A stretch of DNA of 24,337 bases from the IMG/VR virus record IMGVR_UViG_3300018080_000583, positions 1 to 24,337 of that record; one strand, given 5' to 3'. The notes under the pieces were generated by a model, which had not been told where the DNA came from, searched no databases, and saw nothing but the letters and a program-made list of their open reading frames with translations. This stretch comes from a virus. The position numbers were made by a program, and so were the translations under genes. Numbering within the stretch: the first letter of the stretch is position 1; each line of letters starts with the position of its first letter. Shown here piece by piece: positions 85-24,057 of the stretch.

Positions 85-216
85 ATGAGTAAAAAGACAT
101 TTTTATATGTTTTTAGTAACGGTCATTTTGTAGGATCAATATTAACATTTATTAATGGACACAGAAAGGCTGAGCAAGGTAGCTGCCGGATTTATCCGTG
201 CAGAGTTTCAGCTTAG
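85..216 (+). CDS. Small ORF running through repeat copy 1 (43 aa, doubtful)
   Basis: ATG at 85 follows a purine-rich GGATAGG (74-80). The frame encodes 43 residues, starting Met-Ser-Lys-Lys-Thr and ending Pro-Cys-Arg-Val-Ser-Ala with stop TAG at 214-216. The last third is encoded by the 43-nt repeat, and the same frame of repeat copy 2 also ends within one codon of the repeat (TGA). It overlaps a second ORF (155-313) in another frame; at most one is likely to be the functional product. Changes between the two repeat copies are mostly non-synonymous in this frame (Ser/Cys, Cys/Arg, Tyr/His), which argues against it. No family was recognised. Confidence 0.25.
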   Translation: MSKKTFLYVFSNGHFVGSILTFINGHRKAEQGSCRIYPCRVSA

Positions 217-2995: not shown

Positions 2996-4126
2996 ATGGC
3001 AAGAAAATATGGTAAAAAAAATATTGTTAAAGTAGACCCTTTAGCTTATAATATAGGATTGTTTGGGCTTGGAGGAATAGGTAAAACTACTTTACTAATT
3101 GAAATGTGTGAAAAATTAGTGGGTGAAGATGGATATCTACATTTCAATATAGGACGTGAAAAAGGGGTAGATGCAATACAGGGAGCTATGTCAGAAGATG
3201 TTCCAGATTGGGTTACATTTAATGATATTATAAATGATATATTAGATAATAAAGGAACTGATTATAAAGATTTAAGGGTAGTTTTATTAGATACTTTAGA
3301 TGAATTAGAAAAATTAGGAGAAAAAGAAGTTATTAGACTACATAATAAACAGCATAAAACTAAAATATCTTCTTTTAACAAAGCTTTTGGAGGATTTAAC
3401 AGACCTAGAGATATGTTAAGTGAATTAATCTTAGAATCTATAGATAAACTAAAAAGTGTAGGTGTTACTGTAATAATAGTTGGGCACGTAAAAAGGAAAA
3501 CACAAACAGACCCAGTATCTATGATAGACTATGATGTTATTACTGCAAAATGTTCTAATAGATTATTTGAAGATATTAAAACTAAACTTGATGTATTAGG
3601 CTTAGGAATTATAAAAAGAGATGTTAATACTGAAGTTATAGGTCAAAATATTGTTGGAAAAGATATTACCATAAACAATACTAAGAATGAAAAAAGAGTA
3701 ATAACTTTTAGAGACGATAATTATACAATAGAATCTAAATCTAGATTTGCTGATATAATAAATGAAATTCCGTTTGATACTAATGAGTTTATAAAAGCTA
3801 TTACAGATGCAATTGAAAAAGCCTTTAATAAAAGACCAATCGGAAAAACTTTTAAACAAGCTGAAAAGGAACAAAAGAAAGAGTTTGAGAATAAAGTAAA
3901 ACAAAATATAGAAGAAATTAAAAAACAGAAAGAATTTGAAAGACTTGGAGATAAATCAGAAATAATACAAGAGATTCGAGATTTGTTTTCTCAAGCAGAG
4001 GATGAAAAGAAGCAGTCTGTAATAGAAGCTATGAAGAAAATTGATTGTAAAAATTTTGATCTATTAGAAAATGAAGATTATGAAGTTATAGTTAATATTT
4101 TAAATTTAATTAAGGAGAGTGAATAA
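2996..4126 (+). CDS. RecA-fold ATPase, Sak4-like recombinase candidate
   Basis: 376 residues. Walker A is Gly-Leu-Gly-Gly-Ile-Gly-Lys-Thr-Thr at 24-32 and Walker B is Val-Val-Leu-Leu-Asp at 95-99, followed by Thr-Leu-Asp-Glu-Leu. A later Val-Ile-Ile-Val-Gly-His strand fits the RecA core, as in the phage Sak4 (AAA_24-type) proteins that promote strand annealing or exchange with an SSB partner. The last 110 residues are highly charged and helical (Lys/Glu-rich, about 285-345), probably a coiled coil. It follows the SSB-like gene, which supports a recombination role. A start at ATG 2996 with AAGGAGGG fits well. A helicase-loader ATPase is a less likely alternative. Confidence 0.7.
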   Translation: MARKYGKKNIVKVDPLAYNIGLFGLGGIGKTTLLIEMCEKLVGEDGYLHFNIGREKGVDAIQGAMSEDVPDWVTFNDIINDILDNKGTDYKDLRVVLLDTLDELEKLGEKEVIRLHNKQHKTKISSFNKAFGGFNRPRDMLSELILESIDKLKSVGVTVIIVGHVKRKTQTDPVSMIDYDVITAKCSNRLFEDIKTKLDVLGLGIIKRDVNTEVIGQNIVGKDITINNTKNEKRVITFRDDNYTIESKSRFADIINEIPFDTNEFIKAITDAIEKAFNKRPIGKTFKQAEKEQKKEFENKVKQNIEEIKKQKEFERLGDKSEIIQEIRDLFSQAEDEKKQSVIEAMKKIDCKNFDLLENEDYEVIVNILNLIKESE

Positions 4127-15333: not shown

Positions 15334-17424
15334 ATGAGTAACTACTTATTGGATACAAATATTTGTTTAAGATTCTTTGACAAAATATTAAATACTTATA
15401 AAGATTCAAATATATTTTTGTGTGAAACGGTATTATCGGAACTAGATAATCAAAAGTCTAGAGATGGAGAAGTAGGGTATCTTAGTAGAAGAGTTATAAG
15501 AACATTGTTTGAGATTAAGAAATATGGTAATTACAATGAATTTATACAATTAGAAAATGGTAACAGAATAAAATATGATCCACATTTAGATGAAGACTTA
15601 AATATATTATATGAAAATAATGATGATAGGATAATTTCTTCTTTAAGTTACTGCAATAAAGTATATGGAGAAACAACTTTAATAAGTAATGATTTTTTAA
15701 TATCAATAAAAGCAAGTGGTTTAGGCTTTAAAACCATGTTTCTTGAAGATGATGATAGGTTTTTATATGATGAATTTAGAGGAATTAAATTTATCGATTT
15801 AGAAAAAGTACCTCCTAAAATATTAAGTCAACATTATGAAAATCCAAACGAAAATATATTTGGATTAGTGGAAAATGAATATTTAATTTTAATGGACAAT
15901 GGTAAAAGAAAGGGGGAAATCAAAAGATGGGGTAAAGGAAAATTTAATAGGTTGAAATACAAAGAATTTGCAGTAGAACCAAAAGATGATTTTCAGGCGT
16001 GTGCTTTAGACTTATTGTGTAATAGAGAAATACCTATAAAAATTATTACAGGTAAGTTTGGTTCTGGCAAAAGTCAGCCACTATATTCTAAAATATTAAC
16101 TCCAACGGGTTTTGTTGAGATGGGTAGTTTAAGTATAGGAGATTTAGTAATCGGTCAAAATGGAGTTCCTACAAAGATAACTGGGATATTTCCACAAGGT
16201 ATAAAAGATAATTATAGAATTTATTTTACAGACGATTCTTATACTGAATGTTGTGATGATCATTTATGGAAATATAGAACTTATAGAAATCAAAGTTATA
16301 AAGTAGATAGTTTGAAAAATATAATGGATAAAAAAGATGTATTTATACCAAATTGTAAACCAATAATATTTAATGAAAATAAACACAATATTCCTCCATA
16401 TTTGTTAGGTATAATTTTAGGAGATAATTTTGTTATTGATGAAATAAGTTCTAAGTTAGTAGATATTAACTCAAATTTATTTGAATTAGATTTAAAACTT
16501 TATGATACACATTTTATAAAACAAGAACTAATGAAACTGGGACTTTTAAATGAAAAATTCATACCGAAAGAATATTTACTAGATTCAGTTCAAAATAGAA
16601 AAGATTTATTATCTGGGTTGTTAGATTCAGAATCTAAATTAGGCGAATCTCTAATATTAGAATATAAAACAAAATCTGAAAAATTCAAGGATGACATAGT
16701 ATGGTTGTTAAATAGTCTGGGAAGAAGATGTAAAATTAAAAAATTAAATGAAGACTATGTTATATATATAAATTCTTTTGAGGAAGACATGAAAGTTAAA
16801 AAGATTGAAAAGATAGGTCAGACTGAAATGCAATGTATAAGCGTAGAAAATGAAGATCATCTATACATTACTGATAATTTTATAGTTACACATAATACGT
16901 TTCTATCTTGTCAACAATTATTTAAAGATTTTAGAGATAACAAATACAATAAGTTAGTTTTATGTAGACAAGCGGAAGGAGATACCGATTCAGAGCAACT
17001 TGGTTATTTAAAAGGTGGATATAGTGAAAAAAGTGAGCCTTTCTTTATGCCGATAATGGATAATTTAGGATTTGATGCTTATAGTATAGAGGCAATGCAA
17101 AAAAAAGAAGAATTAGAAATGGTTATACCTTATTACTTGAAGGGTAGAAGCTTTAATGGGGATGTTGCAATATATGTTGATGAGGCAGAAGATTTAACAA
17201 TTAAAACATTAAAACTTATAGGTAGTAGAATAGGGCAAAATGAAAAGGGTGAGTCTGGAACTGTAGTATTTGCTGGGGACTATGCACAAACTGAAAAAAA
17301 ATATCAAAAAAATAATGGACTTTTATTTTTAATAAATAAAACTAAAGATAGCCCATTAGTAGGATATGTAGATTTAGACGTTGATTATCGAAGCGAAGCT
17401 AGTAAAGTTTTTGCTGATTTATAA
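15334..17424 (+). CDS. PIN-PhoH protein (RNase plus ATPase) with an intein
   Basis: 696 residues before splicing, about 421 after. Residues 1-130 are a PIN RNase domain: Leu-Leu-Asp7-Thr-Asn, Val-Leu-Ser-Glu36-Leu-Asp, Asp97-Asp98-Arg, and Ile-Ser-Asn-Asp120. The PhoH ATPase follows. Its Walker A begins Gly-Lys-Phe-Gly-Ser-Gly-Lys at 240-246, is interrupted by the intein (247-521) and resumes with Thr522-Phe-Leu. Walker B is Ile-Tyr-Val-Asp616-Glu617-Ala-Glu-Asp. The end has Val-Asp-Tyr-Arg-Ser. PIN-PhoH proteins are RNA helicase/nucleases in bacteria; the phage role is unclear. It is the last gene of the long operon, before a strong terminator. Splicing should be needed for ATP binding. Confidence 0.9.
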   Translation: MSNYLLDTNICLRFFDKILNTYKDSNIFLCETVLSELDNQKSRDGEVGYLSRRVIRTLFEIKKYGNYNEFIQLENGNRIKYDPHLDEDLNILYENNDDRIISSLSYCNKVYGETTLISNDFLISIKASGLGFKTMFLEDDDRFLYDEFRGIKFIDLEKVPPKILSQHYENPNENIFGLVENEYLILMDNGKRKGEIKRWGKGKFNRLKYKEFAVEPKDDFQACALDLLCNREIPIKIITGKFGSGKSQPLYSKILTPTGFVEMGSLSIGDLVIGQNGVPTKITGIFPQGIKDNYRIYFTDDSYTECCDDHLWKYRTYRNQSYKVDSLKNIMDKKDVFIPNCKPIIFNENKHNIPPYLLGIILGDNFVIDEISSKLVDINSNLFELDLKLYDTHFIKQELMKLGLLNEKFIPKEYLLDSVQNRKDLLSGLLDSESKLGESLILEYKTKSEKFKDDIVWLLNSLGRRCKIKKLNEDYVIYINSFEEDMKVKKIEKIGQTEMQCISVENEDHLYITDNFIVTHNTFLSCQQLFKDFRDNKYNKLVLCRQAEGDTDSEQLGYLKGGYSEKSEPFFMPIMDNLGFDAYSIEAMQKKEELEMVIPYYLKGRSFNGDVAIYVDEAEDLTIKTLKLIGSRIGQNEKGESGTVVFAGDYAQTEKKYQKNNGLLFLINKTKDSPLVGYVDLDVDYRSEASKVFADL
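16072..16896 (+). other. Intein (275 residues) with reduced LAGLIDADG-like region
   Basis: Intein residues 247-521 of the PhoH product. Block A begins Ser247-Gln-Pro-Leu-Tyr-Ser-Lys-Ile-Leu-Thr-Pro. Block B is Thr-Glu-Cys-Cys-Asp-Asp-His310. Blocks F and G end in His-Leu-Tyr-Ile-Thr-Asp-Asn-Phe-Ile-Val-Thr-His520-Asn521, followed by Thr522. The splice rejoins Gly-Ser-Gly-Lys to Thr, restoring a Walker A. Between B and F, Leu-Leu-Gly-Ile-Ile-Leu-Gly-Asp-Asn (357-365) and Leu-Leu-Ser-Gly-Leu-Leu-Asp-Ser-Glu-Ser (425-434) look like decayed LAGLIDADG motifs set about 65 residues apart, shorter than usual, so the homing nuclease is probably inactive. Ser1, His-Asn and Thr+1 are compatible with normal splicing. 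Confidence 0.9.
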
Positions 17425-19212: not shown

Positions 19213-19241
19213 TTGACTTAATTTTATGTTTATGGTATAAT
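19213..19241 (+). promoter_or_regulatory. Sigma-70 promoter upstream of repeat copy 2
   Basis: TTGACT (19213-19218) and TATAAT (19236-19241), 17 bases apart, with an extended TGG before the -10. Transcription would start near 19248 and run through AAAGGAG (19257-19263), the short ORF and the 43-nt repeat towards the recombinase. Confidence 0.82.
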
Positions 19242-19274: not shown

Positions 19275-19376
19275 ATGTGTCAACTACTCACAAAAAAGCT
19301 GAGCAAGGATGCCGCCGGATTCATCCGTGCAGAGTTTCAGATTGAAAAATATAGATTTTACTGTTTTAGGAGTTGA
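19275..19376 (+). CDS. Short ORF containing repeat copy 2 (33 aa)
   Basis: ATG 19275 lies eleven bases after AAAGGAG and behind a near-consensus promoter. Residues 9-22 (Leu-Ser-Lys-Asp-Ala-Ala-Gly-Phe-Ile-Arg-Ala-Glu-Phe-Gln) come from the 43-nt repeat and match ORF 155-313 at 13 of 14 positions. Its TGA overlaps the -35 box of the recombinase promoter. The tail after the repeat has normal AT-rich composition. It could be a small peptide, or the transcript itself may be the functional product. Confidence 0.4.
   Translation: MCQLLTKKLSKDAAGFIRAEFQIEKYRFYCFRS
19298..19340 (+). repeat. 43-nt GC-rich structured repeat, copy 2
   Basis: Same orientation as copy 1 (169-211), with 39 of 43 bases identical. 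The CGGA/TCCG stem, its loop of four, and the outer CTGA/TCAG pairing are kept; one pair of the lower stem is lost through the T to C change at 19313. It lies between two promoters and about 100 bases before the recombinase start. Confidence 0.75.
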
Positions 19377-19402
19377 CTTTTAATGTCTTAATATGTTAAA
19401 AT
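19373..19402 (+). promoter_or_regulatory. Promoter of the recombinase gene
   Basis: TTGACT (19373-19378) and an extended -10 (TGT then TAAAAT, 19394-19402) with an 18-base spacer. The transcript would have a short leader before GAGGGG (19425-19430) and the TTG start at 19438. Confidence 0.65.
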
Positions 19403-19437
19403 ATAGTAAATGTAAGTCGTTCAAGAGGGGTGATAAT

Positions 19438-20007
19438 TTGAAAAAAATATCTAAAAATTTCACATGTAAACCTATCAAAAATAGAAAAACTATTGAAAAA
19501 ATATTTTTGATTGCCGAAATTAAAAATCAAAGATTGTTGTGTATGATTAAATTACAACTTAATCTCGGATTGAGAATTTCAGATATTGTAAAATTAAAAG
19601 TATCTGACTTTGAAAATGATCATGTGTATATTAAAGAAAAGAAAACTGATAAGTATAACAGAATTAAAATTAATGATGAACTTAAAAAATTTATACAGGA
19701 ATACATCTATAGAAATGAATTGAAGTTATCGGACTATCTTTTACAAAGTCGAAAAGGGGAGAATCAACATATTACAACCAGACAGGCAAATCGAGATCTT
19801 GAGTATATCAAAGAAAAGTTGAAACTAGAATATTTTTCTAGTCATAGCTTAAGAAAAACATTTGGATATTTTGCTTATATGCAGTCAAAGGGTAATTTGC
19901 CTCTATTGATGAAGAGATTCAATCACAGTAGCCAGGCAATGACTTTGCGGTATATTGGAATAGAGCAGGAGCAACTTGACGATTTAGCTGAATTGGTGTC
20001 GTTTTAA
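19438..20007 (+). CDS. Short tyrosine recombinase (integrase/invertase)
   Basis: 189 residues from TTG 19438 (GAGGGG seven bases upstream). It has the complete catalytic set: Arg46 (Leu-Gly-Leu-Arg-Ile-Ser), a beta-hairpin Lys (Lys-Glu-Lys-Lys-Thr-Asp-Lys), His136-Ser-Leu-Arg139, His163 (Phe-Asn-His-Ser-Ser) and the nucleophile Tyr172 (Leu-Arg-Tyr-Ile-Gly). The N-terminal core-binding (SAM-like) domain of normal phage integrases is absent. The size is that of FimB/FimE-type invertases and of some minimal integrases. As the last gene before a non-coding repeat-rich stretch, it may integrate the phage there; as a neighbour of hsdMS it could alternatively invert DNA. An upstream ATG (19393) overlaps the promoter and is less likely. 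Confidence 0.85.
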   Translation: MKKISKNFTCKPIKNRKTIEKIFLIAEIKNQRLLCMIKLQLNLGLRISDIVKLKVSDFENDHVYIKEKKTDKYNRIKINDELKKFIQEYIYRNELKLSDYLLQSRKGENQHITTRQANRDLEYIKEKLKLEYFSSHSLRKTFGYFAYMQSKGNLPLLMKRFNHSSQAMTLRYIGIEQEQLDDLAELVSF

Positions 20008-20042
20008 TGAAAAGAAATATATATTCAAAAAACCTCAAAAAG

Positions 20043-20064
20043 TTAATACTTTGTTAACACTTTG
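20043..20064 (+). repeat. Tandem 11-bp repeat just after the recombinase gene
   Basis: TTAATACTTTG (20043-20053) is followed directly by TTAACACTTTG (20054-20064), ten of eleven bases equal. The two also create GTTAA/TTAAC half-sites. Direct repeats in this position are candidate recombinase arm sites. Confidence 0.55.
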
Positions 20065-20142
20065 CAATTAAAAATATGGTATACTTTTAAAAGCACTGTA
20101 GGATTTTCTATTTATAATAATTATAATTTGATTAATTAGAGG

Positions 20143-20213
20143 TAGTTCGGATATAATGAAAATAGAGAATAATATGCGAATATAATAAGAACTTAGTTTC
20201 GGATATAAAATAG
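20143..20213 (+). repeat. Degenerate repeats of a CGGATATAA word
   Basis: TAGTTCGGATATAA (20143-20156), GCGAATATAA (20176-20185) and TAGTTTCGGATATAA (20194-20208) share a core, and the first and third are both followed by AAATAG. Spacing is about 25-30 bases. They could be protein-binding sites. Confidence 0.45.
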
Positions 20214-20310
20214 TTATGTGAACAGAAATCAACCTGTTTGTGGCACTAATAAAGTATAATCTGACTTATTGAAAAAAGCATAAAACCGCCCCCTAAAAGC
20301 AAATTTCCGG

Positions 20311-20325
20311 CTGACATCGTGTCAG
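20311..20325 (+). repeat. Short perfect inverted repeat
   Basis: CTGACA (20311-20316) and TGTCAG (20320-20325) with a TCG spacer, in a GC-richer patch upstream of the hsdM promoter. It could be an operator or a recombination half-site pair. Confidence 0.45.
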
Positions 20326-20361
20326 ACTAAGTTAAAATATACTGAAAAAAATTAAGAAAAA

Positions 20362-20370
20362 TGTTATAAT
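20362..20370 (+). promoter_or_regulatory. Extended -10 promoter of hsdM
   Basis: TG-T-TATAAT at 20362-20370, with no good -35 box (ACTGAA at 20341-20346 is 18 bases upstream). AAGGAA at 20391-20396 and ATG 20404 follow at the expected distances. Confidence 0.6.
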
Positions 20371-20403
20371 CTATTGAAATCTAATAAAGAAAGGAAGTAG
20401 AAA

Positions 20404-22749
20404 ATGAGACAAAAATTATCGCTTTCAAAACTAGAAACAAAGTTATTAAAAGCTTGTGATGTATTAAGAGGGAAAATGGATGCTAATGAATTTAAAGAAT
20501 ACATTTTTGGTATGTTATTCTTAAAAAAGGCATCAGATGAATTTGAAGATAGAAAAAGAGAATTGAGAAAAGATTTTGAAAAAGATGGAGTAGATACTAA
20601 TATGATTGAAGAGTTGCTTGAAGATAGAGCAACTTACGGTAGTTCATTCTTTGTGCCGAAAGAAGCAAGATGGAGTTATAAAGAAAATGGACAAAATAAA
20701 GGGATTCTGCATATAAAGAAAAAAGTAGGTGATGAACTTAATATTGCATTAAGTTCGCTTGAGGAAGCAAATAATAAACAGTTGCAAGATGTGTTAAGTG
20801 GAATAGATTTTACTAAAAAGATTGGTAAAAACTCATTACCTGATAGTAAGTTGTCAGCTTTTATTTCTGTATTTGATGAAATACCACTAGGAAGAGCAGA
20901 TTTAGAATCACCTGATATCTTAGGTTCGGCGTATGAATATCTAATAAAATACTTTGCAGATGAAGCTGGAAAAAAAGGTGGAGAATTTTATACACCGAGA
21001 GAAGTTGTAAAATTAATGGTAAGTTTATTAAAACTAACAGAAGGAATGGAAGTCTATGATCCAACAGTTGGTTCTGGTGGTATGCTTATTCAAAGTAAAG
21101 AATATGTCGCAGACCATAATGGGGATACAACAAATATGCACTTTTACGGACAAGAAGATAATGGAGTAACTTGGAGAGTTTGTAAAATGAACCTTTTATT
21201 CCACGATATTAAAAATTTTAGCATAGAAAATGAGGATACAATAAAAGAGCCTAAGCATACAAAAGGTGGAGATTTACAGAAATTTGATAGAGTAATAGCT
21301 AATCCGCCATTCTCCCAAAATTATACGAAAAAAGACCTTAAATTTGCAGACAGATTTAGATATGGTTTTGCTCCTGAAACTGGGAAAAAAGCAGATTTAA
21401 TGTTTTTGCAGCATATGGTGGCAGTATTAAAAGATAGTGGAAAAATGGCAACAGTTATGCCTCATGGAGTTCTATTTAGAGGAGGAAAAGAAGAAGATAT
21501 AAGAAAAAACCTTGTCACTCAAGATAAAAAATGTTTGATAGAAGCAGTAATTGGTTTACCTGCTGGACTTTTTTATGGAACAGGAATCCCTGCTTGTATT
21601 ATAGTAATAAATAAAGTTGAAGCAGAAAGCAGGGATAAAGTTTTATTTATTAATGCTGATAGAGAGTATAAAGAAGGAAAAAATCAAAATATATTAAGAC
21701 CTCAAGATATACAAAAAATAGTTAGAACTTATGAAAATATGGAAGAAATAGAAAAATACTCTAAATTGGTAAGTATCAAAGAGATTGAAGAAGAAGGGTA
21801 TAATTTTAATATAAGAAGATATGTTGATAATACACCTGAACCTGAAAAAAATGATGTAAAAGCTCATATTATAGGTGGAATCCCAAAAGAAGAAATAGAA
21901 GAAAAGAAAGAATTTTGTAATAATCAGAATTTTGATATTTATTCATTGTTTACAGAAAAAGATGAAAAGTATTTTGAATTTAATATAAATGAAAAGGAAG
22001 AAATTAAGAAAAACATAGATAGCTTTAAATCATTACTAAAAAAAAGAGAAGTAATTCAAAATGAACTTGAAAAATGGTGGAATGAAAATAAAAGTTATCT
22101 TGAAAACTTACAAGGCAATTCAATAATAGAAGCTAAACATAAAATGATGGATAGTTTTGTAGAGAAGCAGATAGATTTTAATATTCTTGATAGAAATAAA
22201 CTAGAAGGTGTTTTTGTTACATTTTTAAACGAGATAACGGAAGATATGAAAGCTATTAATGCGACAGGATTTTTACCAAATCTATTAACTATGGGAGAAA
22301 TATTTGATATTAGATATCCTGATATTTTTGAAAAAATTGAAAAAAAGGAAATAAAAGAAATTAAAAAGGCTAATTTTGAGAAGATATATAATTATATAAA
22401 AGACGGAAAAGAAGGGATATTAGAAAGGTCTTTGGAAGAAAAGAAAAATGGTGGAATAAAGACAAATGAGGGAGATTACAATTATTTTAATATTCTAATT
22501 AAAAAAGCGATGGAGAAAATAGAAGAAAAAGAAGTTAGAGAAGTAGTATTAAAAAGAATTTATAAAGTGATAAATGGAACATTAATTAATTCATTAGACG
22601 ATGAAAAACAAAAAATGATTGACTTGTTAGAACAGGTCTGGGAAAATTATAATTTATCATTAAATACTTTATTGAGTAAAAGAAATGAGGAAAAAAAAGA
22701 ATTAGACGGCTTTTTAAATGAATTATATCTTGATGGAAGTGAGGTATAA
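20404..22749 (+). CDS. hsdM: Type I restriction-modification methyltransferase subunit (HsdM), long form
   Basis: 781 residues. Transfers a methyl group from S-adenosylmethionine to N6 of adenine, in complex with HsdS. An N-terminal HsdM helical domain (about 8-150) leads to the methylase core: Gly-Gly-Glu-Phe-Tyr-Thr-Pro-Arg, motif I Asp219-Pro-Thr-Val-Gly-Ser-Gly-Gly226 and motif IV Asn300-Pro-Pro-Phe303. Past residue 480 a charged, helical, Lys/Glu-rich extension of about 300 residues replaces the shorter tail of the EcoKI type (529 residues). Such long HsdM proteins form a recognised branch. It has its own promoter and forms a pair with hsdS (three-base gap). Confidence 0.92.
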
Positions 22750-22752
22750 ATT

Positions 22753-24057
22753 ATGATTGAAAATTTGAAATTACCTGATGATTGGGAAATAAATTTATTT
22801 GAAAAAGTTATATTAAAGTTTTTTGACTACAGAGGAAAAACACCTTTAAAATTAGGTATGGATTGGGGAAATGGAAATATATTAGCTTTATCAGCAAATA
22901 ATGTTGAAATGGGTAGAATAAATAAAGAAAAAGAGGCTTATTATGCTTCGGAAGAATTGTATAATATTTGGATGAATAAAGGAGATTTAAAAAAAGAGGA
23001 TATTTTAATGACTATGGAGGCACCTTTAGGAAATATTACTCAAGTTCCTGATAACAAGAAATACATCTTAAGTCAAAGAGTTGTTGCAATTAGAACTAAA
23101 AACCAATTAGTAGAAAAATTTTATACTTATTTTCTTAAATCAGAATATTTTCAAGCTGAATTGAGAAAAAAATCGACAGGAACAACAGCTTTAGGTATAA
23201 GTCAAAAAAATCTTTTTCCATTAAAAGTCTTTTATCCAAAATCAACAAACGAGCAAAAAAAAATAGCTTATATATTACAAAGTATTGAAAAAAATATTGA
23301 ATCAACAGAAAAAATTATAGAAAAGTATAAAAAAATAAAACTAGGACTTATGTCTGACCTTTTAACTGGAAGAATTAGAATTAAAGATGGTAAGAAGTAT
23401 GTTGAAACTGAATTTGATATTGTAGATGGAATAAGGAAGCCAATTGATTGGGAAGTTAAAAGTTTAGGGGATGTTGGAGATTTTAAAAATGGTTTGAACA
23501 AAGGAAAAGATGATTTTGGCTTTGGTATTAAATTTGTAAATATTAGTGATGCTTATGAGACAGATTGTGTAAAAATAGATAATTTAGGGCTTATTAATGC
23601 TTCAAAAAATGAAATCAAGACTTACAAATTAAAAGATGGTGATATTGTTCTTGTTCGATCATCTGTAAAACTTGAAGGAGTTGGATATCCTGTTTTATTT
23701 GAAGAATTGACAAAGGAAGATATTGTTTATTGTGGTTTTATGATTAGATATAGGCTTTTTAACAAAAAATTAATTTTACCTAATTATTTACTATTTCTAC
23801 TTAAACATCATTCTACTAGAAGAAAAGTTTTAAATTATGCTACTAAAAGTGCAAATGTAAATATTAATCAAGAAAGTTATAAAAATATAAAAATTATGTT
23901 CCCTAAAAAAGAAGCAGAGCAGCAAGCAATATTGGAACTTGTTTTAAAACAAAATAGGTTGATTGAAAAAGAAGAATTATACCTTGAAAAGCTAAAAAAA
24001 TTAAAAGCAGGATTAATGGAAGATTTATTAACTGGAAAAGTAAGAGTAAAATATTAA
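22753..24057 (+). CDS. hsdS: Type I restriction-modification specificity subunit (HsdS)
   Basis: 434 residues with two target-recognition domains (about 8-170 and 228-395), each followed by a helical conserved region. Both halves end in matching peptides: Leu-Gly-Leu-Met-Ser-Asp-Leu-Leu-Thr-Gly-Arg near 198-208 and Ala-Gly-Leu-Met-Glu-Asp-Leu-Leu-Thr-Gly-Lys near the C-terminus. Gln-Lys-Lys-Ile-Ala and Gln-Gln-Ala-Ile-Leu mark the start of the spacer helices in each half. It therefore looks full length, reading a two-part DNA site for HsdM. No second or partial hsdS and no inverted repeat pair was seen, so inversion switching is not evident within the window. Confidence 0.92.
   Translation: MIENLKLPDDWEINLFEKVILKFFDYRGKTPLKLGMDWGNGNILALSANNVEMGRINKEKEAYYASEELYNIWMNKGDLKKEDILMTMEAPLGNITQVPDNKKYILSQRVVAIRTKNQLVEKFYTYFLKSEYFQAELRKKSTGTTALGISQKNLFPLKVFYPKSTNEQKKIAYILQSIEKNIESTEKIIEKYKKIKLGLMSDLLTGRIRIKDGKKYVETEFDIVDGIRKPIDWEVKSLGDVGDFKNGLNKGKDDFGFGIKFVNISDAYETDCVKIDNLGLINASKNEIKTYKLKDGDIVLVRSSVKLEGVGYPVLFEELTKEDIVYCGFMIRYRLFNKKLILPNYLLFLLKHHSTRRKVLNYATKSANVNINQESYKNIKIMFPKKEAEQQAILELVLKQNRLIEKEELYLEKLKKLKAGLMEDLLTGKVRVKY

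Follow-up and report, generated by a model that had tools for sequence, protein, structure and literature searches.

Two 49-nt single-hairpin repeats in a phage genome as probable terminal-only derivatives of an IS200/IS605-family transposon

A GC-rich repeat pair and its surroundings

The window (the whole 24,337-nt stretch of viral DNA analysed, IMG/VR record IMGVR_UViG_3300018080_000583) encodes a DNA polymerase closest to those of the Fusobacterium phages phiKSUM, FNU2/FNU3 and Fnu1, which suggests a phage host in the Fusobacteriota. Positions 20-123 contain the right end of an IS607-type TnpB element with a RAGATH-18 guide-RNA scaffold (31-92, 64.7 bits); the tnpB gene of this element lies off the contig, and its end near position 123 (...TTTTTAGTAACGG) resembles the ends that follow tnpB in the phages S25-3 and CB457P1. 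At 19393-24057, a tyrosine recombinase gene (19393-20007, PF00589) is followed by type I restriction-modification genes hsdM and hsdS, an arrangement on a phage contig that possibly represents a junction of phage and host DNA or a specificity locus subject to phase variation. A GC-rich repeat occurs once near each of these regions. Copy 1 begins approximately 40 nt beyond the IS607-type element end, and the recombinase gene begins 53 nt past copy 2. With a promoter-like site (19213-19241, score 11/12) on one side and the recombinase gene on the other, copy 2 may well be transcribed; any functional role of such transcription is purely conjectural.

The limits of the repeat were placed at 163-211 and 19292-19340 (49 nt, gap-free, 43/49 identical), with flanks of 30 nt that matched at chance level (7/30 and 6/30); a repeat finder returned 160-214 and 19289-19343 at 87%. 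As originally predicted, the 43-nt core (169-211 and 19298-19340) was 39/43 identical in direct orientation, and its GC content (0.53 in copy 1, 0.58 in copy 2) was far above the 0.26 of the whole window. In a scan of the 24,337-nt stretch, the GC content of copy 2 was unmatched by any other 43-nt segment. The longest exact stretch common to both copies (18 nt) is by itself unremarkable in AT-rich sequence. GC richness, gap-free similarity over 49 nt and homologues outside the window together demonstrated that the repeat pair is real.

Both copies share one layout. A left tetranucleotide stands exactly 16 nt before a guide tetranucleotide; next comes a hairpin, which has a TTYA loop and a bulged T, and TCAG follows after a spacer of 4 nt:

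159-162, plus strand: copy 1 left cleavage/target site ACAC (C_L, on the flanking side), separated from the guide by 16 nt; 3/3 pairs with GTAG by the IS608 rule
163-211, plus strand: copy 1, very probable 49-nt terminal-only IS200/IS605-type element; 43/49 identical to copy 2 with unrelated flanks; its right 29 nt match a Poribacteria IS605 right end at 28/29
179-182, plus strand: copy 1 guide tetranucleotide GTAG (G_L), 5' foot of the hairpin; a Pontibacillus IS605 left end has the identical GTAG/ACAC pair
183-203, plus strand: copy 1 hairpin CTGC-CGGA-TTTA-TCCG-(T)-GCAG (DNA fold); compensatory changes in the subfamily maintain its 8-pair stem
208-211, plus strand: copy 1 right cleavage tetranucleotide TCAG (C_R), 4 nt past the hairpin; spacing and sequence as in Poribacteria and Pontibacillus right ends
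19288-19291, plus strand: copy 2 left cleavage/target site TCAC (C_L), separated from the guide by 16 nt; 3/3 pairs with GATG
19292-19340, plus strand: copy 2, very probable 49-nt terminal-only IS200/IS605-type element; 27-nt exact match to the Poribacteria IS605 right end
19308-19311, plus strand: copy 2 guide tetranucleotide GATG (G_L), assigned by IS608-rule pairing
19312-19332, plus strand: copy 2 hairpin CCGC-CGGA-TTCA-TCCG-(T)-GCAG, assigned by comparison with the Poribacteria left end (CCGC..GCGG) and right end (CTGC..GCAG)
19337-19340, plus strand: copy 2 right cleavage tetranucleotide TCAG (C_R), 4 nt past the hairpin as at copy 1

The inner CGGA/TCCG stem had been foreseen from the sequence. 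The outer stem proposed with it (CTGA/TCAG) does not belong to the conserved fold, since TCAG is the right cleavage site; the outer stem instead pairs CTGC with GCAG and in copy 1 includes a bulged T. In copy 2 the outer stem carries one C.A mismatch, the broken lower pair that had also been noted. Neither element has terminal inverted repeats and, at 49 nt, both are too short for a transposase gene. Apart from the single tetranucleotide no target duplication was found, the flanks of the two copies being unrelated. An empty insertion site would be expected to read ...ATGGACAC joined directly to CTTAG... or ...CTACTCAC joined directly to ATTGA....

Homology to the ends of complete IS605 elements

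A codon-degenerate 27-mer scan of approximately 85,000 bacterial and archaeal species genomes yielded three independent matches, one of which was exact (27/27) in six contigs of a single Candidatus Poribacteria MAG; a seventh copy had diverged. The DNA beyond TTTCAG differed among all the Poribacteria copies, which places the right edge of a repeat at this point. A complete IS605 (G001:C537), with genes for a Y1 transposase (PF01797, E 8.7e-43) and, after it, TnpB (PF07282), ends in one of the copies, and related gene-less elements of approximately 390 bp end in others. The shared 27-29 nt are non-coding in Poribacteria and lie 3' of the tnpB stop codon. The 43-mer itself had no real match in phage and plasmid collections.

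The left end of the Poribacteria IS605 reads TCAC-AATGTTTTGCGCCGAG-GAAG-CCGCCGAATTCATTCGTGCGG. An IS605 on a plasmid of Pontibacillus sp. ALD_SL1 has the same hairpin class, the GTAG/ACAC left pair and a TCAG right end. A full-length parent IS605 of the window copies, most likely to be harboured by Fusobacteriota or Clostridia, would be expected to have the pattern [AT]CAC-16nt-G[AT][AT]G-C[CT]GCCGG on the left and GAAC-CTGCCGGATTYATCCGTGCAG-AGTT-TCAG on the right. Across six subfamily ends the 8-pair stem and its bulged T were kept by two-sided changes at four pairs; 97.9% of cells were paired, compared with 22.9-56.3% in slid versions, and the covariation score of the stem reached 0.433, whereas shuffling gave 0.163 on average (0/500 shuffles).

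Compared with these ends, both copies in the window combine a left half of left-end type (site, 16-nt linker and guide) with a right tail of right-end type (AGTT-TCAG) around one hairpin. The hairpin of copy 2 is itself composite, with a 5' foot of left-end type (CCGC) and a 3' arm of right-end type (GCAG). The 16-nt left anatomy ruled out the element being a pure right end. The other matches that were followed up did not belong to the repeat: those in L003 and L009 look like coding or chance matches, those in L013/L014 were chance matches, probably inside a lysozyme gene, and those in L044-L050 and L052 were pattern matches without further similarity. L056 is coding sequence containing GFIRAE, from what we take to be a YchF-like GTPase.

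A single-hairpin relative was observed in an unrelated gut phage (L051, a 175-kb record; 3350-3430, minus strand), between two genes. It shares 24 identical nt with copy 1, a 21/21 hairpin, a similar upstream linker segment (AAAGGC.GAG) and the TCAG end; upstream of the shared part it differs in length by 1 nt from the window copies. The L051 phage also carries three IS605-type tnpB genes.

Pairing between guide and target tetranucleotides

In the IS608 rule, guide base 1 pairs with site base 2, guide base 2 with site base 1, and guide base 4 with site base 4, and the rule was coded in this form. The layout agrees with the contacts A+16:T-3 and A+17:T-4 and with the IS608 sequences TTAC/AAAG and TCAA/GAAT (PMC5934647). 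IS608 inserts 3' of the tetranucleotide C_L, which is recognised by pairing with the guide G_L at the 5' foot of the left hairpin, and its right end carries a separate pair, C_R/G_R (PMC5934647).

Both left pairs in the window, ACAC/GTAG in copy 1 and TCAC/GATG in copy 2, showed 3/3 pairs at a linker of 16. Swapping the sites between the copies broke both pairings, which identifies the difference as a compensatory change. At a fixed linker of 16 and with the composition of the window, the chance of 3/3 pairs was 0.34% and 0.20% for the two guides. The joint chance was approximately 7e-6 as a product and approximately 6e-5 when linkers of 14-16 were allowed, or overall about 1e-5 to 1e-4.

The rule also held at other ends of IS605 and IscB type. 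The Poribacteria IS605 showed 3/3 pairs at its left end (TCAC/GAAG, linker 16) and right end (TCAG/GAAC, linker 4), and the Pontibacillus IS605 likewise obeyed the rule (left ACAC/GTAG, linker 14; right TCAG/GAAC, linker 4). Three TnpB elements of a 175-kb phage (G086) gave matching right pairs TCAC/GAAG (twice) and TGAC/CAAG and left pairs TCAA/GAAT and TGAA/CATT; their right ends are of a different class, which excluded these IS605 TnpB elements as the source of the window copies. A minority of control IS ends, with hairpins chosen by eye, did not reach 3/3. The rule was further obeyed by a Poribacteria element with an IscB-like coding sequence (L083/L084, G001:C538; left CCAC/GGTG, linker 16; right TGAC/CAAG, linker 4). 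Both ends of this element have the same hairpin class, and guide and site have changed together.

At the right site, TCAG formed only 1/3 and 2/3 pairs with the single guide of the respective copies, though the 4-nt spacing was correct. As expected of a one-hairpin fusion, which would retain the left guide only, the copies lack the right-guide match that characterises an autonomous or fully mobilisable element. This absence bears on mobility, not on derivation; with a single guide that does not match TCAG, the 49-nt unit may not be excisable.

Alternative readings, origin and mobility

Taken together, the anatomy, the match of guide and target in each copy and the homology to the ends of complete IS605 elements make it very probable that the two copies derive from an IS200/IS605-family transposon as 49-nt single-hairpin forms without a transposase ("terminal-only PATEs"). 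The GTAG foot (GATG in copy 2) and the bulged hairpin of copy 1 also resemble classical REPs (PMC8266576, PMC3733652), single hairpins with a 5' GTAG-type tag that are mobilised by TnpA_REP (RAYT), a domesticated transposase, rather than by an IS200/IS605 TnpA. A REP-like origin is nevertheless improbable: the record holds two copies instead of many, without inverted pairs and without a RAYT gene, a 16-nt linker leads to a matching tetranucleotide, and the sequence identity is to genuine IS605 ends, not to REPs. Even less credence can be given to a structured RNA, either a small RNA or the 3' end of an omega-RNA working with a TnpB encoded elsewhere. In Poribacteria the 29-nt counterpart does follow tnpB closely, at the usual position of omega-RNA 3' ends, and copy 2 has the promoter-like site upstream. 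However, a TnpB scaffold would not fit into 49 nt, the left half resembles a left end rather than an omega-RNA, neither copy matched Rfam even at E<=5, and RNA stability was not unusual (z -0.7 and -0.8). Moreover, the sequences after TCAG, taken as TnpB guides, found no good self-target in the window and did no better than random.

Direct repeats near both ends of a phage-like segment, one of them close to a recombinase gene, could be attachment or recombination sites at which the tyrosine recombinase excises or inverts the intervening segment. This explanation, which the original prediction had offered alongside a small RNA and a shared peptide, is very unlikely, given that the identical sequence serves as a transposon end in an unrelated bacterium, that its anatomy is that of Y1-transposase ends, that each copy matches a different target tetranucleotide, and that related recombinases occur in other phages without such a repeat. 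A conserved short peptide (..LSK[DV]AAGFIRAEFQ..) would account for the open frame in both copies (33 aa in copy 2), for GGAG and ATG upstream in copy 2 and for the silence of 2/4 differences in the 43-mer. It can almost be dismissed: the counterpart in Poribacteria is non-coding, the L051 copy has changed in length, the short ORFs matched no protein family and no solved structure, and the similar open frames in L003 and L009 look like chance matches of the codon-degenerate search. The original prediction was thus partly supported. The idea of a structured repeat of mobile-DNA type was borne out by anatomy and homology, and a fragment of a known mobile element, the outcome it had set against its own proposals, is what the search found in the form of an IS605 end.

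For the terminal-only derivatives, the parent transposon would have carried left-end and right-end hairpins of the subfamily seen in Poribacteria and Pontibacillus IS605. The parent would have entered as single-stranded DNA, placed by its Y1 transposase (TnpA) immediately 3' of a guide-paired tetranucleotide, and a deletion between the two similar hairpins would have removed tnpA and tnpB, leaving the left flank, a chimeric hairpin and the right tail ending in TCAG. The C.A mismatch in the copy 2 stem is expected of such a left/right chimera. No transposase gene was found within the window, and any later movement would presumably have depended on a transposase acting in trans. No full-length parent IS and no empty site were found in related phages; no relatives of the window's phrog_6721-type protein or DNA polymerase were confirmed in viral contigs.

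Whether the 49-nt unit itself moved to a second place is more doubtful. It is conceivable, though we lean away from it, that the unit is mobile and spread between phages after guide mutation, each copy then choosing a different target tetranucleotide; deletion scars, or an undecided outcome, take the remaining weight. Mobility is favoured by the fact that one phage has the same fusion twice, with guide and target matched separately in either copy, and by the third relative in L051. Against it stand the guide without a TCAG match and the L051 relative, which does not obey the guide rule. Furthermore, a guide/target match is also expected of independent core deletions, since the parent was inserted by the same rule. 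A unit mobile in this way would rank with the smallest mobile DNAs known and would be retargeted naturally as its guide mutates.

Haloquadratum walsbyi has terminal-only PATEs (derivatives of ISHwa23 and HqIRS46; 52 bp) that arose by core deletion between near-terminal palindromes, and the study describing them left undecided whether forms of approximately 50 bp move or each represent a separate deletion scar (PMC3119063). The window copies share with them the length of approximately 50 bp, the fused ends around one near-terminal palindrome and the absence of a transposase gene (PMC3119063), but they reside in a bacteriophage of a probable Fusobacteriota host, not in a haloarchaeon, and their two guides differ, each matching its own target. 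With IS200/IS605 insertion sequences (IS608, ISDra2, and the Poribacteria and Pontibacillus IS605) they have in common the hairpin class, guide/cleavage pairing and linkers of 14-16 nt on the left and 4 nt on the right, whereas they lack tnpA and tnpB, a second hairpin and a right guide. REP sequences, too, consist of one imperfect hairpin that has a tetranucleotide at its foot (GTAG in copy 1); they differ in copy number, which is low in the window, in lacking the IS605-type linkers and target tetranucleotide, and in their association with a RAYT, of which none is known here. Two copies in one phage, with differing guides that each match their own site, provide a natural test case for mobility of the approximately 50-bp form; they are also an example of IS200/IS605 remnants at phage loci that a reader might take for att sites or small RNAs.

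Elsewhere in the window, a PIN-PhoH protein (15334-17424) was observed to carry an intein-like insertion inside its P-loop (GKFGSGKS / QPLYSKILTPTGF...FIVTHN / TFLSC), between the PIN and PhoH domains.
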